Source of the DNA: Tropicimonas isoalkanivorans
GTDB lineage: Bacteria > Pseudomonadota > Alphaproteobacteria > Rhodobacterales > Rhodobacteraceae
Direction: 5' to 3'
NCBI RefSeq assembly: GCF_900112335.1
Contig: NZ_FOLG01000004.1
Location: 1 to 64,000 of the forward strand
Length of the DNA: 64,000 nucleotides
Shown piece after piece: positions 277 through 30,296 of this stretch (its first letter is position 1; every line of letters begins with the position of its first letter). The notes beneath the pieces are model-generated. The model made no database searches. It had not been told where the DNA came from and saw only the letters and a list, made by a program, of their open reading frames with translations. Made by a program: the position numbers and the translations under genes.

Positions 277-343
277 GTACCTCGTCTAACCGCATGAATT
301 CCCGATGTGAATCCTTCACCGGCTGAGTTCTGCAACAACGCCC
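1..343 (-). mobile_element. IS5-family insertion sequence, one end only
   Basis: The window opens inside an insertion sequence whose transposase runs off the left edge on the minus strand. The element probably ends near 321-343, where the minus strand begins GGGCGTTGTTGCAG followed by AACTCAGCC, which looks like the terminal inverted repeat of an IS5-family element. The other end, and any target duplication, lie outside the window, so the exact boundary is inferred. Confidence 0.6.
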
Positions 344-5384: not shown

Positions 5385-6041
5385 TCAGCCGCCCGTGCGG
5401 GCCAGCATGACGTGCATCACCCCGCTCAGTGACGCGACCATCTCGATATCATAGCGATCCTCGAGCGACTCCATCCCATCCCAAAGGCGGACGCCCCGGC
5501 CGAGAAGGACCGGGACCACCACGATGTGCATGTGATCGACCAACCCGGCGGCGACGAAGTCCCGGACCATGCTCGGCCCCCCGCCAATCCGCACATCCAT
5601 GCCGCCTGCCGCGTCGCGGGCCGCCGCGAGGGCCTCGGCAGGCGCTGCGTCCAGGAAGTGGAACGTGGTGCCGCCCTCCATCTCAAGGGGCGGGCGCGGG
5701 TGGTGGGTGAGAACGAAGACCGGCGTGTGGAACGGCGGGTTCGCACCCCACCAGCCGGTCCAGTCCGGATCCTCGTGCCAGCCGGGCGGGCCGAACTTGC
5801 CGGCCCCCATGATCTCGGCACCGATGCCGTGCGAGAACTGCCGCACAAGGGCGTCATCGATCCCCCGTGTGCCGCCCTCCTGGCCGAACATCTGGCGGCC
5901 CCATCGGGTCGCGAACATCCACTCGTGCAGCTTGTGCCCGGCGTGGCCGAACGGCGCCTCGCGGCTGAGGCCGACGCCCGTGCCGAAGCCGTCCAGCGAA
6001 ACGGCAAAATGCTGGACGCGGGTGCGGGATGTCCCGGCCAT
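5385..6041 (-). CDS. Dihydrofolate-reductase-like (RibD C-terminal fold) protein
   Basis: A 218-residue protein of the YyaP/RibD_C reductase family, related in fold to dihydrofolate reductase but usually not essential for folate. It begins like its family (QHFAVSLDGFGTG, with the conserved S-LDG near the N-terminus) and has IMGAGKFGP, HHPRPPLEMEGGTTF, IGGGPSMVRDFVAAGLVDH and the VPVLLGRGVRLW signature that binds NADPH in relatives. It is the last gene of the nine-gene DGPF-type cluster, 2 bases after the DUF1428 stop. Its physiological substrate is not known in this setting. Confidence 0.85.
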   Translation of the reverse strand: MAGTSRTRVQHFAVSLDGFGTGVGLSREAPFGHAGHKLHEWMFATRWGRQMFGQEGGTRGIDDALVRQFSHGIGAEIMGAGKFGPPGWHEDPDWTGWWGANPPFHTPVFVLTHHPRPPLEMEGGTTFHFLDAAPAEALAAARDAAGGMDVRIGGGPSMVRDFVAAGLVDHMHIVVVPVLLGRGVRLWDGMESLEDRYDIEMVASLSGVMHVMLARTGG

Positions 6042-6043
6042 GG

Positions 6044-6448
6044 CTACGCGTCCTCGCCATGCGCATCCGGCGCGACGTCCACCACCGGGACGAAGCCGCC
6101 GTAGATCAGGCGTTTGCCATCGAACGGCATCGGGTTCTTCGCCGGGTCCATGCGCGGGTCGGCCGACTCGGGGGTGTTCATCCAGTCGGTCATCGTCGCG
6201 TAGGCCGCGTCACGCGTCGCCTTGTCCGGCCACTCGACCCAAGAGAAGGCGACCGTCTCGCCGTCCTCCGCCTGCACGGCCCGGCGGAAGTCGGTCAGGG
6301 TCCCCTCCGGCACGGAGTCTCCCCAGCATTCGACCACCCGGAGCGCCCCGAGGTCGAGGAACACCCCGTCAGCCCGCCGGGCGTGGTCGATGAACGCCTC
6401 CCTGTTTGCCGTCGGAACGGCGATCACGAAACCGTCTACGTAGGTCAT
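6044..6448 (-). CDS. DUF1428 family protein
   Basis: A 134-residue protein starting at the ATG at 6448-6446 (MTYVDGFVIAVPTANREAF). It matches the DUF1428 family (YbaA-like, ferredoxin-like alpha/beta barrel), with the typical VECWGDSVPEGTLTDF, FSWVEWPDKATRD and MPFDGKRLIYGGF segments. The function is unknown. These small dimeric barrels recur in ECF42-linked clusters beside YCII and PhnB-type proteins, as here. It sits 13 bases after the upstream VOC gene and 2 bases before the DHFR-like gene, so it is almost certainly cotranscribed with them. Confidence 0.85.
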   Translation of the reverse strand: MTYVDGFVIAVPTANREAFIDHARRADGVFLDLGALRVVECWGDSVPEGTLTDFRRAVQAEDGETVAFSWVEWPDKATRDAAYATMTDWMNTPESADPRMDPAKNPMPFDGKRLIYGGFVPVVDVAPDAHGEDA

Positions 6449-6461
6449 GCGGGGTCCTCCC

Positions 6462-6944
6462 TCAGCTTTCCGCCGCCGCGCGGTCCAGCGCGGCAATGTC
6501 GATCTTCTGCATGGTCATCATCGCCTCCATCGCGCGCTTCGCCTTGGCGCGGTCAGGGTCCGTCGTGAGCTCCATCAGCCGCCGCGGCGTAATCTGCCAG
6601 GAATGCCCCCACCGATCCTTGCACCAGCCGCAGGCGCTCTCGGTGCCGCCGCCACCGACGATGGCGTCCCAGTAGCGGTCGGTCTCCTCCTGGCTCTCGG
6701 TCATCACCATGAAGCTCACGGATTCGTTCGGTGTGAACGTCGGTCCGCCGTTCAGGCCCAGGAAGGGCCGCCCGAGCACGGTGAATTCCACGGTCAGCTC
6801 GGCGCCCTCCCGGCCGCCGGGGAAGTCGGTCGGGGCGGGGTTCGTGCGGCCGACGTGGCTGTCGGGGAAGGTGGCGGCATAGAACTCTGCCGCCTTGCCG
6901 GCTTCGCCGTGGTCATACCACAGGCAGGTTACGAGTTCGGTCAT
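6462..6944 (-). CDS. VOC/PhnB-like (3-demethylubiquinone-methyltransferase-like) protein
   Basis: A 160-residue vicinal-oxygen-chelate protein. The start at the ATG 6944-6942 ([11 protein letters not shown]) is fixed by an AAGGAGG a few bases upstream. It carries the PhnB pattern: EAAKFY-like [39 protein letters not shown] and [20 protein letters not shown]. Despite the old family name it is not a methyltransferase. Members are metal-binding or binding-only proteins of unclear role. It is one of two VOC proteins in the DGPF cluster. Confidence 0.85.
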
Positions 6945-7011
6945 GGTCGTCCTCCTTGTCCTTGCTTGGAACATCGCCCGCCCGCATGCCGGGCCGGTCC
7001 GGCGCGTCGGT

Positions 7012-7620
7012 TCAGTCCACTGGCCGGTCGTAGGAGCCCGTCCGAAGCGGCCCCGCCGGCTGATACCGGCTGATGATCACCCCCGAGCCCGCGCGCTCGA
7101 TCCCGACGAGCCTCAGTTCGCGCGCCCCGAAACCCTCCCGGAAAAAGCGCTTGCCCGCGCCGAGCAGAACCGGCGCCACCAGCAGCACGATCTCGTCGGC
7201 GAGGTCCTGCTCCACCAACACCGGCGTCAGCGTCGAGCTTCCCCAGGTGACCAGGTCCGGCCCCTCCGTCGCCTTCACGCGGCGGATGCCCGCGACGATA
7301 TCCGCGCCGAGCGCTTCCGCGGGCCCCCAGTCGAGGCTCCGCGCCCCGTGCGTCGCGACGAACTTTGTCGCGCCGTTCAAACTGTCGGCCAACGGCCCGC
7401 GCCGCTTCGGCCAGTAGCTGCCAAAGATGTCGTAGGTCCGCCGCCCGATGAGCAGGTCGAAGCTCTGCCCGTAGACTGCCTCAATGGCCTCTCCCACCGC
7501 GGGGTCGCTAAACGGCATCGCCCATCCGCCGTGGGCGTAGTCGCCGTCCTCGTCCGGCGCACCCGGCGCCTGGATCACCCCGTCGAGCGACATGTGTTCG
7601 ATGATCCGGATCTTCCGCAT
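7012..7620 (-). CDS. Dihydrofolate-reductase family protein (RibD_C)
   Basis: A 202-residue NADPH-binding reductase-fold protein ([20 protein letters not shown]). It shows the SLDGVIQ start motif, [12 protein letters not shown] (the DHFR-like G-R-x-T-Y loop), [28 protein letters not shown] and [15 protein letters not shown]. It is a second, distinct DHFR-like member in the same cluster (the other ends at 5385). Such pairs are common in ECF42/DGPF neighbourhoods. The activity is unassigned. It is followed 67 bases later by the VOC gene and preceded by a YCII gene. Confidence 0.85.
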
Positions 7621-7656
7621 CCACTTGCCCTCCCTTCACTCACCTCCCCGGGCGGC

Positions 7657-7989
7657 CTATGGCGCCTCGAGAAGCGGCCAGACCTCGACCACCCCGTGGG
7701 CCACCGCGCAGGGCGTTTTCGCGACCAGAGCGACAGCCTCCGCAAGGCTCTCCGCCTCGATGAGGGCGAACCCCGCCACCGGCAACGCCGAGGCCATGAA
7801 AGGCCCATCCTCTGTCGCCACGCCCGCCGCCCCGGGGTTGCGGACCTGCACCGGCCCCCCGGCCACGCCCATCACTGCGCCCGCCTGGCGAAGCGCCGCG
7901 TCGGCCGCGTGGGCGGCGTCCCGCAGCGCAGGCGCCGTCCGGTCGTAGCCGGCGCGATCCCCGTATCCGATCGTCACGAATGTCGGCAT
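7657..7989 (-). CDS. YCII-related (DGPF) protein
   Basis: A 110-residue small alpha/beta protein of the YCII superfamily. It has the family's DGPF tetrapeptide (ATEDGPFMASALPVAGFALIE) followed by the strand-helix pair FALIEAESLAEAVAL and a closing VVEVWPL strand. Such DGPF proteins are the signature partners of ECF42 sigma factors. A catalytic role has been suggested for the family but is not established. It lies 26 bases downstream of the SRPBCC gene. Confidence 0.8.
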   Translation of the reverse strand: MPTFVTIGYGDRAGYDRTAPALRDAAHAADAALRQAGAVMGVAGGPVQVRNPGAAGVATEDGPFMASALPVAGFALIEAESLAEAVALVAKTPCAVAHGVVEVWPLLEAP

Positions 7990-8014
7990 CTGTCCTCCCC
8001 CGCGTCCCGGCCCC

Positions 8015-8458
8015 TCAGCCGGGGATCTCCGGCTCGATCAGCCGCTTGAGATTGTCGAGCGACTGCTGCCAACCCAGATAGCACGCCTCTGCCGGGATCA
8101 GGTCCGGCACGCCCTCCTGAACGATCTGCACATCCGCTCCCACCGAAACCGGCACAATCGTGACAGTCACCTGCATCTCCCCCGGCAGGTTCGGGTCGTC
8201 GAAGGCGTCGGTGTATCGCACCCGCTCGCCCGGCGTGAGCTCGACGAAACTTCCCCCGAAGGCATGGCTGTCCCCGGTCGTGAAGTTGCGAAAGCTCATG
8301 CGGAAGCGACCGCCGGCATTCGGCTCGAACTCGTGCACGGTGCAGGCGAAGCCGTCGGGCGGGAGCCATTTCGCGAGCGCATCGGGTTCGAGGAAGGCGC
8401 GGTAGACCTTCTCGGGCGAGGCCGCGAGCACACGGTGCAGACGGATCGTACTGGGCAT
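8015..8458 (-). CDS. SRPBCC/AHSA1 domain protein
   Basis: A 147-residue START-like protein with the AHSA1 pattern: LAASPEKVYRAFLEPDALAKW at the N-terminus, PNAGGRFRMSF in the middle, and a C-terminal amphipathic helix (GWQQSLDNLKRLIE). Proteins of this fold bind hydrophobic ligands in a deep cavity. No specific ligand can be proposed. It is co-oriented and closely spaced (27 bases after the upstream YCII gene), within the putative ECF42 operon. Confidence 0.85.
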   Translation of the reverse strand: MPSTIRLHRVLAASPEKVYRAFLEPDALAKWLPPDGFACTVHEFEPNAGGRFRMSFRNFTTGDSHAFGGSFVELTPGERVRYTDAFDDPNLPGEMQVTVTIVPVSVGADVQIVQEGVPDLIPAEACYLGWQQSLDNLKRLIEPEIPG

Positions 8459-8485
8459 AGGGCGTCTCCTTCGGGTCCGGTGGGC

Positions 8486-8851
8486 TCACATGTCGGGGAT
8501 CGACAGGATCGGCATGACCTCGACCGCGTCGCCCGGGAAAATGGTGTAATGCGGGTGGTCCTCGAAAAGCTTCGCCGCCGCCTCGTGGCTTTCCGCCCGA
8601 ACGATCGAGAATCCGCCGAGCGCGTTGCTCACCTCCTCGATGCCGTCCGCCGACACGCGCCGCGTCTTGCCGAGCGGCCCGCCGATCTCGACGATGGCGT
8701 CGGAGTGGCGCTCCGTCCAGGCTTGCCAGGCGGCCATGCCCTCCTGTTCCCTGGCCTTGCGGGTGTCGTCGTCCAACGCCTTCCAGTCCTGCATGCGCGC
8801 GCTGGTCTGGCTGCCGAGAAAAACGGCGAGGAATGTTGTTTGGGTGCTCAT
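8486..8851 (-). CDS. YCII-like protein
   Basis: A 121-residue protein. The start at the ATG 8851-8849 (MSTQTTFLAVFLGS) has a GGAGGA ribosome site just upstream; a longer reading frame overlaps the next gene and is not used. The pattern (AVFLGSQ..., a helix rich in Glu/Ala, EIGGPLGKT, GGFSIVRAESHEAAAKLF, then HYTIFPGDAVEVMPI) fits a divergent YCII/DGPF protein in which DGPF reads GGPL. It is the second YCII-type gene of the cluster. Function is unknown. Confidence 0.75.
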   Translation of the reverse strand: MSTQTTFLAVFLGSQTSARMQDWKALDDDTRKAREQEGMAAWQAWTERHSDAIVEIGGPLGKTRRVSADGIEEVSNALGGFSIVRAESHEAAAKLFEDHPHYTIFPGDAVEVMPILSIPDM

Positions 8852-8915
8852 GTGTCCTCCTTCCCGCGTCCGGCGGGGGGCAATGGGGCTGAATGGGGGT
8901 CGGTGTCCCGCCGTG

Positions 8916-9263
8916 TCACTCGGCGGCTTGACCGAGGTCGAGCTGGCGAACGGGGCGGACTTCGATGGCGCCGTGCTTCGCAGGCGGGATGCCACTCGCG
9001 ATCTGGATCGCCTCGTTGAGGTCGTTTGCCTCCACAAGGTAGAAGCCGGCGAGCAGCTCCTTGGTCTCCGCGAACGGGCCGTCGTAAAGCTGCACCTGGC
9101 CGTTCCGCACCCGCACTGTGGTCGCGGTGTGGACGGGGTGCAGCGGCTCGGCGGCCAGCAGGCGCTTGCTCTCCTCCAGCCCCTGCGCGTAGTCGGCGCA
9201 GACCGGATCGGGGCAGGCACTCCAGTTCTCCTGGTCGAGATAGACGAGGCAAAGGTATTTCAT
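8916..9263 (-). CDS. YCII-related DGPF protein
   Basis: A 115-residue, textbook DGPF protein: MKYLCLVYLDQENW start, HTATTVRVRNGQVQLYDGPF with the DGPF motif, ETKELLAGFYLVEA, then LNEAIQIASGIP and a C-terminal IEVRPV strand. This exact architecture is the one usually encoded next to ECF42 sigma genes. Here the sigma gene lies over 11 kb upstream on the same strand. The gene follows the VOC gene by 46 bases. Confidence 0.9.
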   Translation of the reverse strand: MKYLCLVYLDQENWSACPDPVCADYAQGLEESKRLLAAEPLHPVHTATTVRVRNGQVQLYDGPFAETKELLAGFYLVEANDLNEAIQIASGIPPAKHGAIEVRPVRQLDLGQAAE

Positions 9264-9309
9264 GCGCGTTTCCTTTCACATGTTGCGGGAAGGCCGGTAC
9301 CGGCGCCGC

Positions 9310-9735
9310 CTACATCGTCACTTCGCCGTTGATCGCCCAGGGCGTCCCGAAGCGGTCGACAAGCATGCCCGCGCCCTTGGCGTAGAAGGCCGGCGCAAAG
9401 GCCATGGTCACCGTGCCGCCCTCGGCAAGCGCCTCGAAGACGCGTTGGGCCTCGGCGACGGTCGGGTAGGTCATGGTGATCGTAATGCCCTTGATGCCAT
9501 CGTACGGCATGCAGGCCGGAGCGTCGCCGGCGAAGATATAGGAGCCATCGTCGAACCGCAGCCGGGCGTGCACGATCCGGTTGGCCTCGTCGGGCGGCAT
9601 CTCGGGGGCCATCGGCGTATCCGCGCCGCGCAGCATCATCTCCAGCGTCGCGCCGAGGCCGAGCACACCCTCATAGAGCCGCATCGCCTCCGCGCAGGTG
9701 CCGTCGAATCCGAGGTAGGGTATGGCCTGTGCCAT
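9310..9735 (-). CDS. VOC/PhnB-like glyoxalase-superfamily protein
   Basis: A 141-residue protein starting at the ATG 9735-9733 (MAQAIPYLGFDGTCAEAM), with GGAG just upstream. It shows PhnB-type features: MRLYEGVLG, HARLRFDDGSYIFAGDAPA, TITMTYPTVAEAQRVF, FAPAFYAKGAGMLVDRFGTPW. It is the promoter-proximal gene of the nine-gene DGPF operon. An ECF42-like promoter lies about 60-90 bases upstream. Family members bind metal or small molecules; no reaction can be assigned. Confidence 0.85.
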   Translation of the reverse strand: MAQAIPYLGFDGTCAEAMRLYEGVLGLGATLEMMLRGADTPMAPEMPPDEANRIVHARLRFDDGSYIFAGDAPACMPYDGIKGITITMTYPTVAEAQRVFEALAEGGTVTMAFAPAFYAKGAGMLVDRFGTPWAINGEVTM

Positions 9736-9795
9736 GGGGTCTCCTTGCCGTTTCCAATTTCGTGAGGGCCGAGGTTCCGGGCCTCCTCGTACATT

Positions 9796-9823
9796 GGTCG
9801 AACGGGCAGGGGCGGATTCGACA
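9796..9823 (-). promoter_or_regulatory. ECF42-like promoter for the DGPF operon
   Basis: Reading the minus strand, TGTCGA (9823-9818) and CGACC (9800-9796) are separated by 17 bases. As I recall, characterised ECF42 promoters have TGTCGA at -35 and CGA/TC at -10, so both boxes match. The site would place the transcript start about 55 bases before the first gene's ATG. I did not find the motif upstream of the ECF42 sigma gene itself. The match is by eye, not by a scored model. Confidence 0.55.
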
Positions 9824-10009
9824 GCGGGACGAAATTTTTTTGGGGGGGAGGTCGCAATCCGTGTTGGTCCGCTATGCGGACGAAGAGGCCGTGCCGTACC
9901 AATAGGCAAATGTCTCGAATGGAGCCGGTAGCGGTCGGTCGGCTTGTAGATGATTATTGCCTCATAGCGGGCATTTTCGGTGCCGGCTATGCCATGGCTG
10001 CCGAAATGT

Positions 10010-11170
10010 TCAGGCGCTTAGGCGACCGAGCAGCCGGTCCAGCATCGCATCGCATGCGGCGAGCTGGGTTTCCTCGATGTATTCGTCGGGTTTATGTGCC
10101 TGCTCCATGTTCCCCGGTCCGCATACCACCGTCGGGATGCCCGCTTTCTGGAAGAAACCGGCTTCGGTGCCGAAGCTTACCTTGGTGGCCGGAGCGAGCC
10201 CGCCTGTGGCGAAGGCCAGTGTGGCGGCCCTTCCTTCCGACGCTGTCTCGAGCCCCGGATAGGCGTTCGTTTCCTCGATGTCGATGCGGGCATCGGGATG
10301 TACGCGAAGATGGCCGGCGAGGAGACGGTCGCTCGCGTTCTCAATACGCCCGAGTATTCCTGCTGGTTCCTCTGCGGCGAGATGCCTGATCTCGAATTCG
10401 AGGACGGCGGCCTCCGGCACGACGTTGAGCGCGGTGCCGCCGGAAAGCACGCCGGCATGGACCGTGGAAAAGGCGATGTCGTATGCGCTGTCACGCACGC
10501 CGGTCTTTTCCAGTTCCTCCTGAACGTCGCGCAAAATGCCAATGAAATCCGTGGCGAGATGAAGCGCGTTCAGATGGCGTGGCGCCGAGGCGGAATGTCC
10601 GGAACTGCCGTGAAAGGTCACGCGGTAGGAGGTCTTGCCCTTGTGTCCGGTGGCGACGCGCATCGATGTCGGTTCCCCGACCACGCAGCAGTCCGGCTTG
10701 CCGATCGTGTCATCGAGTTGGCCGATCATCTCCGCGATGCCGACGCAGCCGATTTCCTCGTCATAGGAGAAAGCAAGCTTCAGCGGTTTTGCAAGTTTTT
10801 GCCTTGCCGCCCGGTCCGCGGCTGCAAGGGCCGCCGCGGCAAAGCCTTTCATATCGCATGTGCCGCGGCCGTAAAGCTTCCCGCCGCGGTGGGTAAGCCG
10901 GAAGGGATCCGCCGTCCAGGCCTGGCCGTCGACAGGGACGACATCGAGATGCGCTGACAGCAGCACGCCGCCGGGCTGTTCCGGTCCGATCGCCGCGAAG
11001 ATGCCGGCCCGCGTCCCCGTCTGGTTGGGCAGGCGAAAGCAGCGAAACCCGATCGACTGCAGATGATCGACTATGTAGTCGGCGATGTCGCAATAGTTTT
11101 CGGCGGTACACACCGAGGGAAAGCTTACCAAGCAGTCGAGATGCTCGAGCGTCGAAGTCCCGTCGTTCAT
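10010..11170 (-). CDS. M20 deacylase, ArgE-like
   Basis: A 386-residue zinc-dependent amidohydrolase of the M20/ArgE-DapE family. Such enzymes cut acyl groups from N-acyl amino acids (acetylornithine in ArgE, succinyl-diaminopimelate in DapE). Visible signatures are SAHLDVVPVDGQAW (metal His and Asp), GRGTCDMKGF (bridging Asp) and SYDEEIGC (catalytic and metal Glu pair), then VGEPT and a late GPGNMEQAHKPDE with the last metal His. It overlaps the upstream gene by 4 bases (ATGA). The setting, after a peptide transporter and near an NSAR-type racemase, makes an acyl-amino-acid deacylase more likely than arginine synthesis (inference). Confidence 0.8.
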   Translation of the reverse strand: MNDGTSTLEHLDCLVSFPSVCTAENYCDIADYIVDHLQSIGFRCFRLPNQTGTRAGIFAAIGPEQPGGVLLSAHLDVVPVDGQAWTADPFRLTHRGGKLYGRGTCDMKGFAAAALAAADRAARQKLAKPLKLAFSYDEEIGCVGIAEMIGQLDDTIGKPDCCVVGEPTSMRVATGHKGKTSYRVTFHGSSGHSASAPRHLNALHLATDFIGILRDVQEELEKTGVRDSAYDIAFSTVHAGVLSGGTALNVVPEAAVLEFEIRHLAAEEPAGILGRIENASDRLLAGHLRVHPDARIDIEETNAYPGLETASEGRAATLAFATGGLAPATKVSFGTEAGFFQKAGIPTVVCGPGNMEQAHKPDEYIEETQLAACDAMLDRLLGRLSA

Positions 11171-12123
11171 TCGCCATCACCCCGCTTGGCGGCGTAGGAG
11201 ATGGAAAAGCGGGCTTGCCCGCTCAGGCTGACCACACGGCCGTCCCGGACCACCACGTTCGGCTCGACAAGGGTCGTCCCGATTACCACACCGTCGCGGA
11301 CAACCGGAGCTCCCAGATAGATGGCGGCGCAGTTGCGTTCGCCTGACAGCAGCCTCTGCGCATCGGTCTCGATCCGCTGCACCTCGCCATCGGCATCGAT
11401 GATGACGCGATGCGCCTCCGCCAGGACCAGCGGCGTGCCAGCGCAGACGGCGATCGAACCTGCGGGCTCCGGGTCGGGCTGCATGATGCCCAGCGCGATG
11501 TCCGCGACCAGCGCCGCAAGGCTGGCATGCGGCGCGATGGCGTTGTGAAGGATTGCGACGGTTGCCGAACCTGCCGTGCGCCGCGCGCCACCGAGATCGG
11601 GGCGGCTTGCGACGAGGCGGCTATTCCGGGCCGCAATCCCTGCATGCGGCCCCAGCGCGATCATGCCCGCGTCGGCCTCGGGATTGGCCTCGAACACCTG
11701 GGCCAAGGCGGCCTGCGCGTCCAAGCCCCTGCCCATTGCGGCGAGAACGGCCTTGTTGAGCGGAACGCCGTCATCTCCTTCGGCGTTCGGCAGGCGATGC
11801 CCGGTCACGAGACCGATTGCCGGATCGGCGGCGAGGAACTGGGAGAGCGGCGAGGGCCGGTCGGGTCCGCTCGACATGACCGCCGCACGGCGAGCGGAGG
11901 CCACGCTCGGAGGAGGTACGGTACCGGTCGTCTCGCCCTCGGTGAAGAGTGTCGACGTGCCGCCACGCTGCGTTTCGGCGGTATGGAGCGTTCCGTCTTC
12001 CGCAATGGCGGCGAATACGGCGAAGCCGCCGATCGAGCCCGTCCCGACCCGTTCGGCCGCCTGCAATGCCTTGAAGACGGCGAGGCCGGCATTCGGTCCA
12101 AGCGCCCCGATACCGATCGTCAT
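11167..12123 (-). CDS. Unknown-function protein (possibly DUF6963)
   Basis: A 318-residue protein starting at the ATG 12123-12121 (MTIGIGALGPNAGLAVFKAL), overlapping the upstream ATPase stop by 4 bases and the deacylase ATG by 4. The N-terminal pattern GPNAGLAVFKALQAAERVG, GGFAVFAAI and AETQRGGTSTLF, and the middle DDGVPLNKAVLAAMGRGL, fit a family seen with peptide transporters; I believe it is listed as DUF6963. There is no signal peptide, so it is probably cytoplasmic. Fixed placement between a dipeptide transporter ATPase and an M20 deacylase suggests it acts on the imported compound. I do not assign a reaction. Confidence 0.55.
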   Translation of the reverse strand: MTIGIGALGPNAGLAVFKALQAAERVGTGSIGGFAVFAAIAEDGTLHTAETQRGGTSTLFTEGETTGTVPPPSVASARRAAVMSSGPDRPSPLSQFLAADPAIGLVTGHRLPNAEGDDGVPLNKAVLAAMGRGLDAQAALAQVFEANPEADAGMIALGPHAGIAARNSRLVASRPDLGGARRTAGSATVAILHNAIAPHASLAALVADIALGIMQPDPEPAGSIAVCAGTPLVLAEAHRVIIDADGEVQRIETDAQRLLSGERNCAAIYLGAPVVRDGVVIGTTLVEPNVVVRDGRVVSLSGQARFSISYAAKRGDGE

Positions 12124-13106
12124 GCGGCGCTTCGTGCGGCGGGTGCATCCGGGGCGCGCAGGTGGCACGCCGCACGGTGTTCGCCGTCCACTGTGTTGAG
12201 CGCCGGCGCCTTCTGACGACAGATGTCTTCGGCGATCGGGCAGCGGGTGTGGAAATGGCATCCGGGTGGCGGATCGACCGGGCTCGGCACGTCGCCCTTC
12301 AGGACGATGCGCTCGCGCCTGCGCGCGCCGGGCTTGGCGACCGGCACGGCGGACAGAAGCGCCTGCGTGTAAGGATGCTGCGGATTGGAAAAGAGCATGT
12401 CGCGCGGCCCGATCTCGACGATGCGTCCGAGATACATCACCGCGACGCGGTGGCTGACGTGCTCGACCACGCTCATGTCGTGCGAGATGAAGAGGAGCGA
12501 CAGCCCCATCTCCTTCTGCAGGCGGATCAGCAGGTTGATCACCGAGGCCTGGATCGAGACGTCCAGCGCCGAGACGGGTTCGTCGGCGATGATGATCTCG
12601 GGATCGACGATGAGCGCCCGCGCGATCGACAGGCGCTGTCGTTGCCCGCCCGAGAACTCGTGCGGAAAGCGCGTCATCTGGTCCGCCCGCAGACCGACCT
12701 TCTCGAAAACCTCGGCCACCCTGCGCGTCAGGTCGCGGCCAGAAGCGATGCCGTGGATCTTCAGCGGCTCGCCGACGATGGCGCCGGCCGTCATGCGCGG
12801 GTTGAGGGAGCCGTAGGGGTCCTGGAAGATCGTCTGGATTTGCCGACGCACGGGCTTCATGAGCCGCCGGCTCAGGCCGGCGATGTTCTGGCCGCGCACC
12901 ACGATGGCACCTTCGGTCGGGTCGTGGAGCTTCATGATCAGTTTGCCGACGGTCGACTTGCCGCAGCCGCTTTCGCCCACCAGTCCGAGCGTCTCTCCGG
13001 GGCGGATCTCGAGCGACACGCCGTTGACGGCGTTGACGAAACGACCCCCGCGCATCGGAAAGCGTTTCACCAGACCTTGCACGGCGAGGACGGGGGCGGG
13101 AGTCAT
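12120..13106 (-). CDS. Peptide ABC transporter ATPase (DppF/OppF-type)
   Basis: A 328-residue ATPase, started at the ATG 13106-13104 ([16 protein letters not shown]) by comparison with the family and by its 4-base overlap with the upstream gene. It has Walker A (GESGCGKST), the ABC signature (FSGGQRQRLSIARAL), Walker B and neighbours (IIIADEPVSALD), the switch His (LLFISHDMSVVEH), and the oligopeptide-type C-terminus GCHFHTRCPIAEDIC. It pairs with the DppD-type ATPase to power import by the DppBC permease. The symbol is not given because the substrate class (dipeptide or other) is inferred. Confidence 0.9.
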   Translation of the reverse strand: MTPAPVLAVQGLVKRFPMRGGRFVNAVNGVSLEIRPGETLGLVGESGCGKSTVGKLIMKLHDPTEGAIVVRGQNIAGLSRRLMKPVRRQIQTIFQDPYGSLNPRMTAGAIVGEPLKIHGIASGRDLTRRVAEVFEKVGLRADQMTRFPHEFSGGQRQRLSIARALIVDPEIIIADEPVSALDVSIQASVINLLIRLQKEMGLSLLFISHDMSVVEHVSHRVAVMYLGRIVEIGPRDMLFSNPQHPYTQALLSAVPVAKPGARRRERIVLKGDVPSPVDPPPGCHFHTRCPIAEDICRQKAPALNTVDGEHRAACHLRAPDAPAARSAA

Positions 13107-15090: not shown

Positions 15091-15100
15091 GGTCCCCGCC

Positions 15101-16024
15101 TCAGTACCGGATGCGCGGATCGAGCCACGCGTAGATGACGTCCATCAGCAGCGACACCGTCACGACGATGCAGGCAAACATCAGGATGAAGCCCTGTATG
15201 AGCGGGTAGTCGCGCTGGAAGATGGCCTGGATGGCCATGCGGCCGACGCCGTTCCATCCGAAGACGTTCTCGACCACGATCGCACCGCCCATCATGTAGG
15301 TGAACTGCAGGCCGATCATAGTGACGATCGGGACGAGGCCGGCGCGCAGCGCATGGCCATAGAGCACCATCGCCTTGGGAAGCCCCTTGGCGCGGGCCGT
15401 GCGAATGAAATCCTGGTCGAACACGTCGATCATCGAGGATCGGGTCAGACGGGCGATAATCGCGGCGTTGGTGACCCCCAGCGTTACCGCGGGCAGAACG
15501 AGGTTCTCGATACCGTTGCCGGCGACGGGGAACCATTGCAGCCGCACGGCGAAGAAGAAGAGCAGGATCAGGCCGAGCCAGAAATGCGGCATCGACACAC
15601 CGAGGATGGCGGTCGTCATCAGGGACGTGTCGAGCCAGCTGCCTCTCTTGTAAGCGGCGATGAACCCGGAGACGAGGCCGATGACACATGCAATCAGCAG
15701 AGCGGCGCCGGCAAGCGCCAGCGTGTTGGGAAGCCGCTCCAGCAGCAGTTCCAGCACCGGCTGTTCGCCGCGGATTGTGGTGCCGAGATTGCCCTGCAGT
15801 ACGCGGCCCATGTACTGGACATACTGAACGACCAGCGGCTCGTTGAGACCGAGGCGCTGGCGCACCTCTTCGAGCTCTTCCGGCGTCGTGCCCTGCGACT
15901 GCGCGTACATGATCTGCACCGGATCGCCGGGAACGAGGTGGATCAGCATCGAGACCGCGATGGTCGTGATCCATATCGTGAGCAAAGCGGCTAATGATCT
16001 CTGGAGCAGGTAACGGTCCATCAT
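15101..16024 (-). CDS. Peptide ABC transporter permease (DppB-type)
   Basis: A 307-residue inner-membrane permease. The first TM (LQRSLAALLTIWITTIAVSML) is followed by the family's LVPGDPVQIMY motif and the LGLNEPLVVQYVQYMGRVLQ stretch. The EAA loop is IRTARAKGLPKAMVLYGHAL. About six membrane spans are present. It begins 52 bases after the binding-protein gene, and a strong hairpin sits in that gap, so its expression is probably lower than that of the binding protein. Confidence 0.9.
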   Translation of the reverse strand: MMDRYLLQRSLAALLTIWITTIAVSMLIHLVPGDPVQIMYAQSQGTTPEELEEVRQRLGLNEPLVVQYVQYMGRVLQGNLGTTIRGEQPVLELLLERLPNTLALAGAALLIACVIGLVSGFIAAYKRGSWLDTSLMTTAILGVSMPHFWLGLILLFFFAVRLQWFPVAGNGIENLVLPAVTLGVTNAAIIARLTRSSMIDVFDQDFIRTARAKGLPKAMVLYGHALRAGLVPIVTMIGLQFTYMMGGAIVVENVFGWNGVGRMAIQAIFQRDYPLIQGFILMFACIVVTVSLLMDVIYAWLDPRIRY

Positions 16025-16045
16025 GGCTCTCCGGCGAGTGATATT

Positions 16046-16069
16046 GCGGGCGGGCCAGGGCCCGCCCGC
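16046..16069 (-). terminator. Intercistronic hairpin between binding protein and permease genes
   Basis: GCGGGCGGGC (16046-16055) and GCCCGCCCGC (16060-16069) form a perfect 10-bp all-GC stem with a 4-base loop, starting 7 bases after the binding-protein stop codon. No T-run follows. This is the typical placement for a 3'-end stabilising or partially terminating hairpin that raises binding protein over permease levels. The effect is inferred. Confidence 0.65.
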
Positions 16070-16076
16070 GCTTCAA

Positions 16077-17615
16077 TCAGGGCTGCATGGCGGCAAATTG
16101 AGCCCGGTTGAAGGGTCCGATCTTGAAGCCCGGCGTGTCGGCGGAAACCGCGTAGAGCCAGGCCCATCCCGGCGTGTAGATCGGCACCTGGCCGGCTTCC
16201 TCGAGCAGGATCTTGAATGCCTGCTGCACGACTTCCTTGCGCGCCTCCGGTTCGACCGTGGAGCGCATCTCCTCGAGGATCGCATCCAGCTCGGGCGTGT
16301 GGAAGCCTTCATAGGCGCCCGGTGAGTGCCACAGAAGGTAGAGCAGGTCGGGGTCGAACCATGTCCAGCCCATCAGGTCCATGTATCCCGGACCCTCTTC
16401 CCGGTTGTTCTCCTGCGTATCGCGCGCATTCAGCGTTCCGATGTCCATGACCTCGATGTTGGCCTGGATGCCGACCTGCGAAAGCTGGTTCTGGATCATC
16501 TGAAGCATGCGTTCGCGGCTGTCGCCCGTCCACGTCGCCAGCGTCACCTCCATCGGGTTGTCCGGACCGTAGCCCAGTTCCGACAGCAGGGCCTGCGCCT
16601 GTTCCGGATCGTAATCCTGGTCGTACTGCTTGCAGAATTCCGGATCGTTGCCGAAGACGCCGCGTGATATCGGGCAATATTGCCGTTCGACGAGATCGCC
16701 GTAGACGACCTGGATCGCCATATCCTTGTCGATGGCGTGAGAGACGGCCCTGCGTGCCCGTGCGTCATCGAAGGGCGGGCGGTTGACCGCGAACTGCAGG
16801 AACATGTTCTGGCCGGTGCCGGTGGCGACATGGACGTCGACGGCCTCGTCTTCCTGCAGCGACTTCACCTCCTGGATCGGCGGCGCGATGACGTTCAGTT
16901 CGCCGGTCCGCAATCCGGCGACGCGTGTCTGCGCCTCCGGCATTGTGCGCACGACGAGCCTGTCGGCGAACGGCGCGCCGTCATTGTCGACGGGCCGGCC
17001 GCGATTGACGTAGTCGGCGTTCTTTCCGAGCACGATCTCGGACCCCTTGGTCCAGGATGCGAACTTCCATGGTCCTGTGCCGAGCGCCGAGGAGACGCCG
17101 AAACCGTCCGCATCGGCGTTGGTGTCGCACAGCATCGAGGTGAACTGGTCCGCCATGAAGGGCACAAAGGCGCCGAACGGCTTCGAGAATTTGAAGCTGA
17201 CCGTCAGGTCGTCGACCTTGTCGACCGAGGTGATCGGCCCCCAGCTTGCTTTGGTGAGGCTCGGATTGTCCTCGCCAAGCGCGCGCTCAGCCGTCCAGAC
17301 AACATCGTCGGCGTTGAACGGCGAACCGTCGTGACAGACGATGCCCTCGGCAAGTGTGAAGGTGACCTCGGTACCGTCGTCGGCAACCTCCCAACTTTCC
17401 GCCAGGTTCGGAACCGGCTCGCCGGCATCATTGAACTCCAGCAGGGAGTCGTAGATCTGGTACCAGACCTGGCGCGAGAGGGTGGAGGTGGCGCGGTGTG
17501 GATCGAGCGAGTCGATGTCACCATCGCGCGCCCAGACGATGTCGTCGGCCATGGTCGGCGCGGCGATGCCCAGTAGTATTGCGCCGGTCAAGGCCACAGT
17601 CATCCTGACAGACAT
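16077..17615 (-). CDS. Peptide-type periplasmic binding protein (DppA/SBP family 5)
   Basis: A 512-residue extracytoplasmic binding protein that delivers peptides or similar ligands to the DppBC permease. The start is the ATG 17615-17613 (MSVRMTVALTGAILLGIAAPTM), with AAGGAG upstream. Residues 1-22 are a signal peptide (probable cut after ...PTMA). Family-5 hallmarks follow: DIDSLDPHRATSTLSRQVW, NLAESWEVADDGTEVTFTL, GTGPWKFASW and RRAVSHAIDKD. It is the first gene of the minus-strand operon, divergent from the RpiR-type regulator. The ligand is not known; neighbours suggest acyl-amino acids or dipeptides. Confidence 0.9.
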   Translation of the reverse strand: MSVRMTVALTGAILLGIAAPTMADDIVWARDGDIDSLDPHRATSTLSRQVWYQIYDSLLEFNDAGEPVPNLAESWEVADDGTEVTFTLAEGIVCHDGSPFNADDVVWTAERALGEDNPSLTKASWGPITSVDKVDDLTVSFKFSKPFGAFVPFMADQFTSMLCDTNADADGFGVSSALGTGPWKFASWTKGSEIVLGKNADYVNRGRPVDNDGAPFADRLVVRTMPEAQTRVAGLRTGELNVIAPPIQEVKSLQEDEAVDVHVATGTGQNMFLQFAVNRPPFDDARARRAVSHAIDKDMAIQVVYGDLVERQYCPISRGVFGNDPEFCKQYDQDYDPEQAQALLSELGYGPDNPMEVTLATWTGDSRERMLQMIQNQLSQVGIQANIEVMDIGTLNARDTQENNREEGPGYMDLMGWTWFDPDLLYLLWHSPGAYEGFHTPELDAILEEMRSTVEPEARKEVVQQAFKILLEEAGQVPIYTPGWAWLYAVSADTPGFKIGPFNRAQFAAMQP

Positions 17616-17784
17616 TTGATGTCTCCTTTGTCGAACTGTACGTCGGAGCCTTCGTTTCGAAAGGCGTTGTGCGCCGCCACACAACCGAAAGGTGATACGA
17701 GAATTTTAGTTTGTCAAAGGGTTAAAAAAATTGTTTCAATGAGGGCGAGCGGTGGACCCAGCCGTGCCCGGCAAAGAGACGCGC

Positions 17785-18666
17785 ATGCCTAAAAATGAGA
17801 CGGAACAGACCAAGCCGAGGGCTTTCGAGCGCCGTATCAAGGCGGTCTACGACACCATGCCGGCAAGCGAACGCACGCTGGCGGACCGCGTGCTGGAGTA
17901 TCCGGGCGATATCATCATGTGCTCGGCGACCGAACTGGCGGAACTCTCCGGCGCGTCGAAGGCGGCTGTCACGCGGTTCGTCAAACGGCTCGGCTATCAC
18001 GACTTCCGAGACATGCAGAAGGAAATCCGCCAGGCGCAGACGACCGGCGATCCTATCTTCCTGACGTCGGGAACGATGCGCATGGAAGCCAAGCAGGGAT
18101 CGCTTGCCGCGCATTTCGAACAGGATATGGACTGCCTGCGCCGCACGGCGGACAATATCGACGAAGAAACGGCTCTCGCCGTGGCACGGCAGATCGTCAA
18201 GGCACGGCGCATCGTCTGTCTCGGCTTCCGCAACAGCCACTTCTTTGCCGCCTACGCGCGTCGGCTGATCATCAACACGCGTCCCAACGTCATGGTCATG
18301 CCGAGTGCGGGGCAGATGCTGATGGAGGACATGTCGGACCTTGGCGAGAAGGATCTCATCTTCGCCGTGGGCCTCAGGCGGCGGACGCCGACCCTCGGCA
18401 AGACTATGGAACTGATGCAGAAGCAGAAAGTCCCGATTGCCTACATCACTGACCGGCGCGCCGTAACGACCACGAAATTCGCGACCTGGACGCTTGCCTG
18501 TCACGTGCGCGGAACCTCGCTCTTCGACTCCTATGTCGGTGTCATCAGCCTCATCAATTTCATCTGCACGCGCGCAAATCACATCGCCGGCAAACCGGCG
18601 CGGCAACGCCTCGGCCGGATCGAAGAAATGCTGGAACTGCTGGGCGAGCTGGACTCCAGCAACTGA
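17785..18666 (+). CDS. MurR/RpiR-family transcriptional regulator
   Basis: A 293-residue regulator: N-terminal RpiR-type HTH (about residues 10-85, with CSATELAELSGASKAAVTRF and KRLGYHDFRDMQKEIR) joined to a C-terminal SIS domain (about 120-260, with ARRIVCLGFRNSHFFAAYA). SIS domains bind phosphosugars in relatives; here it probably senses a product of the neighbouring pathway. I chose the ATG at 17785 over the upstream GTG at 17752 because the family starts near here. It is divergent from the peptide transporter operon across a 169-base AT-rich gap and upstream of the racemase, so it likely controls both. Confidence 0.85.
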   Translation: MPKNETEQTKPRAFERRIKAVYDTMPASERTLADRVLEYPGDIIMCSATELAELSGASKAAVTRFVKRLGYHDFRDMQKEIRQAQTTGDPIFLTSGTMRMEAKQGSLAAHFEQDMDCLRRTADNIDEETALAVARQIVKARRIVCLGFRNSHFFAAYARRLIINTRPNVMVMPSAGQMLMEDMSDLGEKDLIFAVGLRRRTPTLGKTMELMQKQKVPIAYITDRRAVTTTKFATWTLACHVRGTSLFDSYVGVISLINFICTRANHIAGKPARQRLGRIEEMLELLGELDSSN

Positions 18667-18695
18667 AACCCGACGAATTGGATGGAGGGCCGCCG

Positions 18696-19790
18696 ATGCG
18701 CCTCGACAAGATCGATGTCTTTCATGTCGCCATGCCGCTCAAGCAGCCGTGGAAGACCGCGTTCAGCGAAGAACACGCGATCGATAGCGTGCTGGTGCGT
18801 ATAAGGAGTGGCGACGACATCGGCTGGGGTGAGGCGGCGCCATACGCGGCGCCAGAATTCTCGCCCGAGTGGGCTGGCGGCTGCACTCATCTCATCCGCA
18901 ACATCCTTGCGCCATTTCTCGAGTGCACGTCTATCGCCAGCGGCCAAGAGCTTCAGCACAAGCTATCGCGCTTCAAGGGGAACCAATTCGCTAAGGGCGC
19001 AATCGACACCGCCTACTGGGACCTGGTCGCAAAGAAGAAGGGCGTGTCGCTCTGGACGTTGATCGGCGGCACGAATCCGGAAATCGCCGTGGGCGCCGAT
19101 ATCCCGGTGCAGGACAGCGTGCAAAAACTGCTCGCCGATGTCGCGGCCTCCATCGAGGCGGGCTTCCCGCGAACGAAGCTGAAGTTCCGTCGCGACAGCG
19201 GATTCGAGATGGTCCGCCGCGTCCGCGAGGCTTTTCCGGACGCAACGATTCACATAGACTGCAACGGCGGCTTCACGCTTGAGGACCTTCCGCTGTTTCG
19301 CGAGCTGGATGCGCTTCAGCTGACGATGATCGAACAGCCCCTTTCAGGCGACGATCTGATCGATCATGCCCGTCTTCAGGAACACCTGGATACGCCAATC
19401 TGCCTGGACGAGAGCATCACCTCGGTCAAGCGTGCCGAGCAGGCGATCGATATTGGCGCGGCGCGCTGGATCAACATCAAGCACGGCCGCGTCGGTGGAC
19501 TGACGAACGCGATCGAAATCCACAAGCTTTGCATTAAACGCGACGTGCCTTGCTGGATTGGCGGGATGCTGGAGTCCTTTGTCGGGCAGGGAGTTTCCAT
19601 GGCCATGGCCACCTTGCCGGGGCAGGCCTATGCGGCGGATATTTTTCCGGAAGGCCGGCTCTACGCGGACGATCTCGCCCACCCGCCCATCCTTCTTTCG
19701 GGCAGCGGCACGGCGATGGCCCCGGATCGGCCGGGTCACGGCTTCGAGCCGGTTCCCGAGCGATTGAAGAACTGCCTTGTACGCCAGTAG
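18696..19790 (+). CDS. Enolase-superfamily racemase (NSAR/OSBS-like)
   Basis: A 364-residue enzyme of the muconate-lactonising subgroup. GGAGG stands 7 bases before the ATG at 18696. Catalytic Lys pair region TKLKFRRD, metal ligands in HIDCNGGF (Asp), MIEQPLSGDD (Glu) and CLDESI (Asp), and the second base Lys in INIKHGRVGG are all present. The C-terminal GGMLESFVG fits o-succinylbenzoate synthase / N-succinylamino-acid racemase rather than L-Ala-D/L-Glu epimerase, which has a DxD element not seen here. No menaquinone genes are nearby, so racemisation of acyl-amino acids is the better guess. It follows the RpiR gene by 29 bases. Confidence 0.75.
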   Translation: MRLDKIDVFHVAMPLKQPWKTAFSEEHAIDSVLVRIRSGDDIGWGEAAPYAAPEFSPEWAGGCTHLIRNILAPFLECTSIASGQELQHKLSRFKGNQFAKGAIDTAYWDLVAKKKGVSLWTLIGGTNPEIAVGADIPVQDSVQKLLADVAASIEAGFPRTKLKFRRDSGFEMVRRVREAFPDATIHIDCNGGFTLEDLPLFRELDALQLTMIEQPLSGDDLIDHARLQEHLDTPICLDESITSVKRAEQAIDIGAARWINIKHGRVGGLTNAIEIHKLCIKRDVPCWIGGMLESFVGQGVSMAMATLPGQAYAADIFPEGRLYADDLAHPPILLSGSGTAMAPDRPGHGFEPVPERLKNCLVRQ

Positions 19791-19999
19791 GAGTTTAGCG
19801 GAGCTCCAACCGCCATAATTACCTGACCGCGTCCGCCAAGCTGAACATTGCGCCTGTGCCTGGGCCCAACAGCGTCTTCGCTTTTGATCACCTCCATACG
19901 CCGTCCGGAACGACCGATACGGGGCGCGAAGCGGCCGATCGGGGTGTCGAAGCGAAGGTCGACTAAGCGCTCTAAGCCGACCTCTGCGCGACAGCTGGG

Positions 20000-20490
20000 T
20001 TACGATGCACGGACAATCTTCGCCGGCCGCATACCCGCCAGCCGGACCTTCAGCGAGCGGATCTAGCCGCTGAGGTTCTTCGTCGCTGGTCCTCAGAAAG
20101 GCTTGATGAACCTTCTGTAGCGGGCGTGGCGCGAGTTCACGTTCTGGATTTGACAGCAGCCTGAGGCCACGCGCGTGGCTGACGTGTTGCCGACCACGAA
20201 GTGCTCGAGATTGAATGCCGCTGCGACCTTCATGTCGCCGTTGGCGCCATCGGAACATCGCGCGGCATCGCGCGCAACCAGTGGCTTCATGGCGCGCTCA
20301 AGCGTAACACCCATGCGGTTCGGCAGGCGTCGGATCGAGGGGAACGTATGATCCTGGTTTGTCCGCGTTTCGATCTCCGAGATCGCCACCGTCTTCTGTC
20401 GAAGATCTGTGATCTTCGACCAGGCGTCCTCGATCTGGGCCGGGTTCAGGCGGTCGAGGGCATCGAGAAACCGGCGAAAATCGTGGTGCA
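20000..20490 (-). pseudogene. IS1595-family transposase remnant
   Basis: On the minus strand the N-terminal pattern (HDFRRFLDALDRLNPAQIED...) and the C-terminal pattern (MKPLVARDAARCSDGANGD, then CQIQNVNSRHARYRRFIKPF) of an IS1595-type transposase are joined in one frame. The zinc ribbon and most of the DDE domain between them are missing. The frame then meets a TGA (20095-20093) where relatives have Cys, reads GPATKNLSG, meets a TAG (20065-20063), reads IRSLKVRLAGM and ends at 20000. It is clearly dead: an internal deletion plus two nonsense codons. It sits between the peptide island and the ECF42 sigma gene. Confidence 0.65.
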
Positions 20491-20906
20491 GCCTGGGTAT
20501 CCTCCGCGTCAAAAGTCGAGGGATATAGGCCTTTCTGCGACGTGACGAAGCGCACCGACACGGTTTGCGGACACCCCCCGTTTTTTTCCGGGCCGCCGCG
20601 CCGCTCCGATTTGCGGAGCCCTCGATGCCCCGGAACATGGCGCCGGTTCGCGCGGACTCGGCCGAACGAGGGCCGGACCGTTGCGCGCGGTCTCCGGTTT
20701 GCTCCGCACCCTGTTCCGACAGTCGCCGAAGGCTCAGCGCGGGCGGCTCCCATCCCGGCTTGGGCCGCGCGCGGGATTTCCGTCGCTCCCCGCGGACGGC
20801 GGATCGTTAACAAACCGTGAATTCACCCCCGTAACCCATTGAAAAACCGCGCCCGGCTCCCGTCCCATCCATGGGACACCGCCGTCTCCGACGCGGGCCG
20901 TGGCTC
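20491..20906. other. Intergenic region with one hairpin, no gene seen
   Basis: About 415 GC-rich bases without a supported gene. A perfect 7-bp dyad GTCCCAT/ATGGGAC (20862-20868, 20871-20877) lies 30 bases beyond the ECF42 sigma stop, with a TTTTTC on the minus strand some 25 bases further. It might end the sigma transcript, but the loop is only 2 bases. Nothing else is recognised. Confidence 0.35.
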
Positions 20907-22154
20907 CTATCGGTCGATCTCCGCCAGCCGCCGTTCCAGGAACCGCCGCTCCGCCGCCTGCCGGCTCAGCCCCAGCGCCGTCTCATAGCTCGTCTTCGCC
21001 TCCTCCAGCCGCCCGAGCCGCCTCAGCAGGTCAGCCTTCGCCGCATGAGCGAGGTGATAGCGACCCAGCCCGCCCGCCTCCATCAGCGGCTCGACAAGCG
21101 CCAACCCCGCCTCCGGCCCCTCCGCCATCGCCACCGCCACCGCCCGGTTGAGCGCCACCACCGGCGAAGGCTCCAGCCGCAGCAGCGCGCCGTATAGGCC
21201 AGCAATCTCCGCCCAGTCGGTCTCCGCCGTGCTCGGGGCCCCCGCATGAACCGCCGCGATCGCCGCCTGGAGCGTGTAGCTGCCGAACCGCCCCGATTGC
21301 AGCGCCGGACCGACCAGCGCGCAGCCCTCCACAATGGCCGCCCGGTCCCAGAGGCTCCGATCCTGTTCTTCCAGCGGCACCAGATCGCCCGCGGCATCGG
21401 TCCGTGCCCGGCGCCGCGACTCCTGGAGCAGCAGCAACGCCAGCAGGCCCCGCACCTCTGGCTCCGGCAGCAGATCCGCCAGCAGGCGCGCCAGCCGGAT
21501 CGCCTCCGCGGAGAGGTCCGGCTTCAGCAGGTCGTCGCCGGAGGACGCCGAATAGCCCTCGTTGAAGACGAGGTAGAGCACCCGCAGCACCCGCCCCAGC
21601 CGCTCCGGCAACTCGCTTGCATCCGGAACTTCGTACGGAATCCCCGCGTCCCGGATCTTGGCTTTGGCTCGAACGATCCGCTGCGCCAGCGTGGTCGGTG
21701 CAAGCAGGCAGGCGTGCGCGATGGCCTCGGTCGAAAGCCCGCAGACTTCGCGGAGGGTCAGGGCGATACTCGCCTCATCGCCGAAGCTGGGATGGCAACA
21801 TGTAAAGATCAGCCTCAGCCGGTCGTCCTCCACCGCCTCCCGCTCGTCGAGCGCGGGCGCGCCGTCAGGTATCGCATCGATGTGGCCCGCGGCCTCGCTC
21901 CACGGCGTCATCCGCCGCTGGCGTCGGAGCTGGTCGATGGCCTGGAACCGCCCAGCCGAGATGAGCCAGGCCACCGGGTTCTTCGGCATCCCCTCCCGCG
22001 GCCAGCGTTCGGCGGCCGCGACAAACGCGTTCTGCAGCGCCTCCTCGGCGAGGTCGAAGCTGCCGAGCAGCCGCACGAGCGTGGCAAACACACGACGGCC
22101 CTCGCGCCGGTAGAGATCTTGGATCGCCGCGGAATCGGGCTTTGGCGGGCTCAT
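20907..22154 (-). CDS. ECF42-type sigma factor with C-terminal TPR extension
   Basis: A 415-residue RNA polymerase sigma factor. Sigma-2 covers about residues 10-75 (RREGRRVFATLVRLLGSFDLAEEA, then ISAGRFQAIDQLRRQRR). Sigma-4 covers about 110-170 (LTLREVCGLSTEAIAHACLL). A long C-terminal domain follows (LYLVFNEGYSASSGDD, WAEIAGLYGALLRLEPSPVVALNRAVAVAMAEG, LAHAAKADLLRRLGRLEEA), with tetratricopeptide-like helices. This layout defines the ECF42 group. In that group the C-terminal part is needed for activity and no anti-sigma gene is encoded, as here. The ATG at 22154 is chosen for its GGAG. Its usual DGPF partner genes are at 5385-9735. Confidence 0.9.
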   Translation of the reverse strand: MSPPKPDSAAIQDLYRREGRRVFATLVRLLGSFDLAEEALQNAFVAAAERWPREGMPKNPVAWLISAGRFQAIDQLRRQRRMTPWSEAAGHIDAIPDGAPALDEREAVEDDRLRLIFTCCHPSFGDEASIALTLREVCGLSTEAIAHACLLAPTTLAQRIVRAKAKIRDAGIPYEVPDASELPERLGRVLRVLYLVFNEGYSASSGDDLLKPDLSAEAIRLARLLADLLPEPEVRGLLALLLLQESRRRARTDAAGDLVPLEEQDRSLWDRAAIVEGCALVGPALQSGRFGSYTLQAAIAAVHAGAPSTAETDWAEIAGLYGALLRLEPSPVVALNRAVAVAMAEGPEAGLALVEPLMEAGGLGRYHLAHAAKADLLRRLGRLEEAKTSYETALGLSRQAAERRFLERRLAEIDR

Positions 22155-25170: not shown

Positions 25171-25260
25171 GCCTCCATCGGAGCGCCGGCGAGACGACGT
25201 ATCTGCCGGTCTCCAAAGGTCTGATGAGGGCGGCGACTTCATAACACCAAGAGACCGTCG

Positions 25261-26175: not shown

Positions 26176-26191
26176 CAAGGAAGACCTGACC

Positions 26192-27688
<1,497 letters not shown>

Positions 27689-27699
27689 GGACCGGATCC

Positions 27700-29181: not shown

Positions 29182-29251
29182 GCCGTACAACCGCAATCCG
29201 TTTGTGCAGCCGTTCACGCCGCCAGATGCCCAAAAGAAGAGACAGACTGAG

Positions 29252-30259: not shown

Positions 30260-30296
30260 CCCCGCCGTCGCATTTCACAGAAACAAGGAGGAACCT

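Follow-up and report, generated by a model that had tools for sequence, protein, structure and literature searches.

A peptide-uptake island very likely splits an ECF42 sigma factor gene from its DGPF operon in Tropicimonas isoalkanivorans

What has come between an ECF42 sigma factor gene and the DGPF/YCII genes beside which such a gene normally stands, and does the sigma factor still control them? The question is raised by the first 64,000 nucleotides of contig NZ_FOLG01000004.1 of Tropicimonas isoalkanivorans (NCBI RefSeq assembly GCF_900112335.1), a stretch that we refer to as the window. An earlier note had described an ECF42 sigma factor gene at 20907–22154 and a nine-gene DGPF-type cluster at 5385–9735 on the same strand, and had read the DNA between them as an insertion into an ECF42 locus. 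Pfam searches and gene positions bear out the inventory: both units are on the minus strand, and ~11 kb separates them. Our sequence comparisons make it very likely that an ECF42 module has been split by a peptide island and that the promoter stayed with the operon; the sigma factor probably still acts on it in trans.

We propose that the ancestral locus would have opened with the sigma gene and continued with a short A-tract, an ECF42 promoter, YCII1 (a DGPF gene) and other genes for small enzymes. The sigma gene would have lain upstream of that promoter and would not have been driven by it. A plasmid-type island for uptake of peptides or N-acyl amino acids, flanked on one side by an IS1595 remnant, would have entered within the few bases that part the sigma stop codon from the A-tract, leaving both transcription units whole: the sigma gene would have kept the region upstream of it, and the operon its ECF42 promoter. 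The sigma factor, with its activity set by a C-terminal TPR extension rather than by an anti-sigma factor, would diffuse to the promoter and turn on the nine genes from 11 kb away. Such an insertion may have been tolerated because the promoter in this clade lies behind the sigma gene, which is thus outside its control, so that neither unit was cut.

The sigma gene (20907–22154, minus strand; 415 aa, with an alternative start of the open reading frame (ORF) at 22181) has the domain make-up of ECF42: sigma region 2, sigma region 4, DUF6596 and TPR. Sigma70_r2 (PF04542) and DUF6596 score above the Pfam cut-offs, the latter with 127 bits at residues 194–291; region 4 (PF08281, Sigma70_r4_2; 22.8 bits against a cut-off of 25.7) and the TPR_8/TPR_2 matches near the C-terminus fall below theirs. 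One paper describes the C-terminal extension of ECF42 sigma factors as ~200 residues long with TPR, and as thought to govern activity through protein contact (PMC8999054). No anti-sigma gene was found beside the sigma gene among the seven genes scanned at 22518–31298 (luciferase-type monooxygenase, alcohol dehydrogenase, AraC regulator, FGGY kinase and sugar transport genes), nor on the island side. The window sigma factor is the sole DUF6596 protein in the genome (4.98 Mb), which disposes of a second ECF42 gene as controller of the operon, and it is present in one of nine genomes of the genus, the eight congeners being without it. It is full length, with no decay seen. Measured against the outside sequence L086 it is 68.0% identical, no less than its nearest relatives (66.7% for L165, 65.3% for L084 and 65.6% for L085, introduced below), and it has not diverged faster than these linked relatives.

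How unusual is the separation? We surveyed DUF6596 and YCII1-like genes in a sample of 295 genomes out of a larger family, and then paired the places. DUF6596 occurs in 60 of the 295, at 69 places, and at 66 of these the DUF6596 segment has a YCII1-like gene no more than 1.5 kb away. At 65 of the 66 the YCII1-like gene is upstream of the sigma gene on the same strand; in one, the genome G099, it is downstream. Two of the 69 places have no YCII1-like gene on the contig; the neighbour is a usual feature of ECF42, not a defining one. The window lacks it, its nearest YCII1-like gene being 12.0 kb from the DUF6596 segment, a separation that exceeds chance.

The origin of the arrangement is best seen in the closest relatives. 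Sigma relatives were taken as the best 80 of 591 and kept as named loci; among these and the family genomes, the nearest sigma proteins are those of G099 (locus L165; 74% identical), Salipiger mangrovisoli (L084; 74%) and Rhodobacterales 32-67-9 (L085; 72%). YCII1 of the window is 82, 82 and 78% identical to theirs, respectively, and its AHSA1-type gene 76, 75 and 77%. In all three, sigma, YCII1 and AHSA1 are contiguous on one strand, without an island between sigma and YCII1; G099 continues with DoxX-like and glyoxalase genes, a distant VOC gene lies further on in each, and L084 and L085 also have a PhnB-like gene. The check set out in the earlier note thus comes out in favour of the insertion claimed there: sigma stands directly upstream of DGPF genes, with no peptide island between. 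The note had foreseen VOC as the first of these genes; in the relatives it is YCII1. The spacing of the window recurs in none of the relatives examined; had all shared it, that would have spoken against an insertion.

In a sigma tree of 97 rows, made by a quick method and with some long branches elsewhere, the window and these three relatives form a clade with a Shimodaira–Hasegawa-like approximate likelihood-ratio test (SH-aLRT) value of 99. The identical four-member clade appears in the YCII1 tree of 84 rows, with support of 100/99, and in both trees the next relatives include L086, L087, L088, L096 and L099. The recurrence of the same clade demonstrates, at the level of sequence, that sigma and YCII1 have descended together. 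Of 29 family ECF42 loci fetched, 28 have a sigma protein only 41–56% identical to that of the window. Regulator and target, as these trees and identities indicate, have a joint history apart from most ECF42 loci of the family.

An ECF42-type promoter, TGTCGA-N17-CGAC, stands at 9797–9823 on the minus strand, 61 bp before the VOC start codon with which the operon opens. The motif TGTCGA-N15..18-CGAC, which we took to be ECF42-like, was then re-derived and checked in the 80 sigma loci, across the zone between 3.5 kb ahead of the sigma start and 2.5 kb beyond the sigma end. By hand count it is present near sigma in 72 of the 80 (in L116 and L148 the match is >2.4 kb from the sigma gene), and it was not found in this zone in the other eight, L106, L111, L115, L123, L135, L136, L137 and L146. 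A recheck of nine loci with a YCII panel found no YCII gene within the stretch covered for six, some on short contigs (L106, L111, L123, L135, L146 and L158). Across the 80 loci the motif favours the sigma strand (102 matches vs 25 on the other), and the strict form does so entirely (23 vs 0). In L084, L085 and G099 it starts ~20 bp past the sigma stop codon, ahead of YCII1. The strict motif has one perfect match in the whole genome, that at 9797–9823, and zero in the eight sigma-less congeners. Since the window site was one of those in view when the strict pattern was defined, we built a matrix from outside sites (72 sites, excluding the window genome, L084 and L085). On this matrix the window site reaches 28.8 bits, against 8.1 for the runner-up in the 64 kb (both strands) and 30.6 for the linked G099 copy. 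The target genes thus carry a predicted ECF42-type promoter.

The same block locates the break. The A-tract and promoter (9797–9841, minus strand) are homologous to sequence that starts 2 bp after the G099 sigma stop codon: window 9841–9797 matches L165 2398–2442 at 86.7% over 45 bp (blastn, E 2e-7), and the match stops upstream of window 9841. A fourfold alignment of the window, G099, L084 and L085 has a related A-rich tract and promoter in all four. Since the block starts 2 bp after the G099 stop codon and the match ends at 9841, sequence homology places the break within a few bases past the sigma stop codon. We read the 11,065 bp from 9842 to 20906, missing at this point in all three relatives, as inserted DNA. 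The 168 bp between the last island gene and the A-tract have no plasmid match, and the RNA fold of 9800–10040 is unremarkable (z −1.76). A match between 20802–20894, just past the sigma stop codon, and the region ahead of an ABC-F gene in the congener G003 was considered as a fossil junction and dropped; several partial copies occur in G003 and in the window genome (G000), and we read it as a dispersed intergenic element.

Pfam and NCBIfam confirm that most of this DNA is a peptide/acyl-amino-acid island (10010–19790), as the earlier note had it. On the minus strand, its operon ends with an M20/ArgE-type deacylase (10010–11170; Pfam, NCBIfam), preceded by genes assigned by Pfam to a DUF6963-DUF7259 protein (11167–12123), a DppF-like ATPase (12120–13193; ABC_tran and oligo_HPY; true start probably near 13106), a DppD-like ATPase (13103–14158; on the longer ORF), DppC-like (14155–15090) and DppB-like (15101–16024) permeases and a family-5 solute-binding protein (16077–17600; SBP_bac_5). 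An RpiR-type regulator (17752–18666; HTH_6, SIS) and an enolase-superfamily racemase of menC/NSAR type (18678–19790; Pfam, and TIGR01928 above cut-off) are on the plus strand, opposite to the other island genes. Window 10031–19760 aligns with Roseovarius indicus plasmid pRIdsm_01 in one alignment of 9,841 columns at 71%, which stops inside the outer genes. The module is complete on this plasmid, conjugative by typing: all nine island genes are there within the conjugation region, order and orientation preserved, and no sigma or DGPF genes occur in the 27 kb read around them. Elsewhere, DUF6963 is found in 15 of 394 family genomes, the window genome counted. Solute-binding protein and Dpp genes adjoin it in 10 of the other 14 neighbourhoods (RpiR too in nine; L256 runs out where its contig ends), and four differ or are partial (L255, L257, L259 and L260, of which L260 has M20, DUF6963, RpiR and racemase without the transporter). 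Within the genus, G003 (L188) has a transporter 52–67% similar and a DUF6963-like gene (36%). The nine DGPF genes and sigma were not seen in 15 island-related stretches at the E-value used. By these comparisons the island is a separate module, living without ECF42 genes.

The reported IS1595 fossil proved real but decayed. A transposase remnant at 20093–20490 (minus strand) was recognised by tblastn to annotated IS1595 transposases: the ORF 20093–20638 has matches in nine plasmid records, three of the best being annotated as IS1595 family transposases, with identities of 66, 63 and 48%, each in two pieces and covering ~71% of the query. A Pfam scan of this ORF gave no transposase family at E up to 1.

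The operon itself consists of nine small genes on the minus strand, from 9735 to 5385, with intergenic gaps of 2–67 bp. A VOC-family protein comes first (9310–9735; no Pfam hit, and an NCBIfam resemblance to VOC protein YjdN below cut-off). It is followed, by Pfam, by YCII1 (8916–9263; YCII, 70.6 bits), the weakly YCII-related YCII2 (8486–8851; YCII below cut-off), the AHSA1-type SRPBCC protein (8015–8458), YCII3 (7657–7989; YCII, 27.6 bits), a DHFR-like RibD_C protein (7012–7620), a PhnB-like VOC protein (6462–6944; 3-dmu-9_3-mt; 61–63% identical in L084 and L085), a DUF1428 protein (6044–6448) and, as final gene, a second RibD_C protein (5385–6041). Among the three YCII-related genes YCII1 alone is strong. 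No plasmid record has a place covering 80% of the nine-gene operon. A fourth YCII place in the genome (contig C10, 2286–2543), considered as a rival DGPF target, was taken as an ordinary YciI; similar-scoring YCII proteins occur in all eight congeners, and the YCII1 search did not report it.

Several observations weigh against a simple split. The window operon starts with VOC and those of the relatives with YCII1; the YCII2, YCII3, RibD_C and DUF1428 genes were not found beside sigma in the three relatives, so other changes have occurred too; and no strain with an identical nine-gene operon and adjacent sigma was found among the relatives. Neither break has a target-site duplication or long end repeats, which leaves a one-step insertion unproved: the break ends share one 7-mer, as do 29% of random pairs, and one 8-mer is inverted between them. 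Likewise, no convincing hallmarks of IS1595-mediated insertion (target-site duplication, terminal inverted repeats) were found at either break. Synteny with all eight congeners starts, among the matches listed, only at ~31.4 kb, and the accessory nature of 1 to ~31.4 kb makes repeated rearrangement likely. As for the promoter, allowing one mismatch gives one further match in the genome and 0–3 per congener (16 in all), more than the single match of a reversed-pattern control in the nine genomes (G000–G008), and the core letters of the matrix were fixed by the choice of training sites. We nonetheless infer an insertion in one event.

Could the operon have more than one master? The M20 gene, reading in the same direction, stops 186 bp short of the −35 element, and a terminator scan found none on that strand, which makes read-through into the DGPF genes possible and is a further point against the proposed reading. 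We regard it as possible, if rather unlikely, that the insertion rewired the operon, which would now answer to two inputs, the ECF42 promoter in trans and transcription running on from the RpiR-linked peptide/acyl-amino-acid operon. Small detoxification-type enzymes would then be made together with peptide catabolism, and the locus would be a natural cis/trans experiment in which ECF42 signalling needs neither linkage to, nor co-transcription with, its DGPF partner.

It is improbable that the parts were assembled separately, with 1–31 kb as an accretion zone to which different transfers brought sigma and the DGPF operon in a fortuitously ancestral order. The accessory left part, other acquired modules within it (e.g. 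24.2–31.3 kb, common to G005 at another place) and the extra operon genes would fit such a history; the shared four-member clade and shared next relatives in both trees would not, and strand, order and promoter position are all consistent with one ancestral locus whose promoter block matches that behind the G099 sigma gene. More doubtful still is a loss of sigma control, with the same read-through from the co-directional peptide-transport operon now driving the nine genes and sigma a leftover: the promoter is intact, its score close to that of the linked G099 copy, and the sigma gene is intact and evolving no faster than its linked relatives. An intact sigma gene and an intact promoter make control in trans the best reading, and it probably continues. 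Equally doubtful is a relocation of the promoter–operon block, rather than the island, by recombination in a zone rich in mobile elements (the IS1595 remnant by sigma; window 1–342, repeated in other contigs among the matches listed), since the block would have needed to keep its strand and order on arrival and to settle right beside an intact island, one with the same outer genes as the plasmid copy.

The surroundings of these loci hold further features. Whole or partial copies of window 1–342, at 99–100%, lie in other contigs among the matches listed, and two of these copies open their contig (C44, C11); the sequence is probably an insertion element. A block of sugar-type ABC transport, kinase and dehydrogenase genes at 24127–31298 has 72–76% identity to contig C5 of G005, at a different place there. 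Contig C25 of G099 has two ECF42 modules 17 kb apart (L164 and L165) with opposite order, YCII–sigma and sigma–YCII; a Dpp-type transporter set lies between them, upstream of the L165 sigma gene, with 26–48% protein identity to that of the window, and is a different set.

Separated loci also occur elsewhere. Two of the 80 named loci, L116 and L137, show gaps of 3.9 and 7.5 kb, respectively, between sigma and the first YCII gene, with the promoter motif shortly before that gene (15034 and 18449). In the intervening stretch of L137, seven of the eight scanned ORFs are on the opposite strand, and these are of non-DGPF type save one glyoxalase. An ECF42 gene separated from its DGPF genes is rare but recurrent, which lowers the surprise of the window. 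We found no published account of a split ECF42 arrangement in the open-licence literature.

What is the significance of the split? The YCII protein has been suggested to be part of the ECF42 mechanism because its gene nearly always adjoins (PMC8999054). A genome whose sole ECF42 gene stands 11 kb from its best predicted promoter, itself preserved, offers a way to ask about the role of linkage. A reason why a break of this kind can persist is suggested as well: with the promoter behind sigma, an insertion there would be harmless to both units. The split is less radical than its length implies, given that the predicted promoter of this clade already sits between sigma and its targets.

The window shares with ECF42 loci of Pseudomonas and other family carriers a DUF6596-extended sigma factor, which there has a YCII/DGPF gene adjoining, and with those of Pseudomonas a promoter of TGTCGA-N17-CGAC type. 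At the 65 family places and in many Pseudomonas loci, however, the YCII1-like gene is upstream of sigma (in many Pseudomonas loci with the promoter first), whereas in the window sigma comes first and the promoter after it, with 11 kb between. In Sinorhizobium meliloti, SMb genes are located on pSymB. RpoE10, an ECF42 sigma factor of that species, does not raise its own operon and raises SMc01149-48 and the remote pair SMb20475-SMb20474, according to a published report (PMC6180224). On that account, RpoE10 has a remote target like the one proposed for the window, but a YCII gene still adjoins its sigma gene; its failure to raise its own operon fits a sigma gene that would not be under the promoter behind it. 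The island of pRIdsm_01 has all nine genes, as in the window, and differs in its setting in a plasmid conjugation region. G099 and Salipiger mangrovisoli (L165 and L084) are of the same clade and have the same promoter block, with sigma standing before YCII1 and AHSA1; they differ from the window in their operon make-up and in having no insertion.

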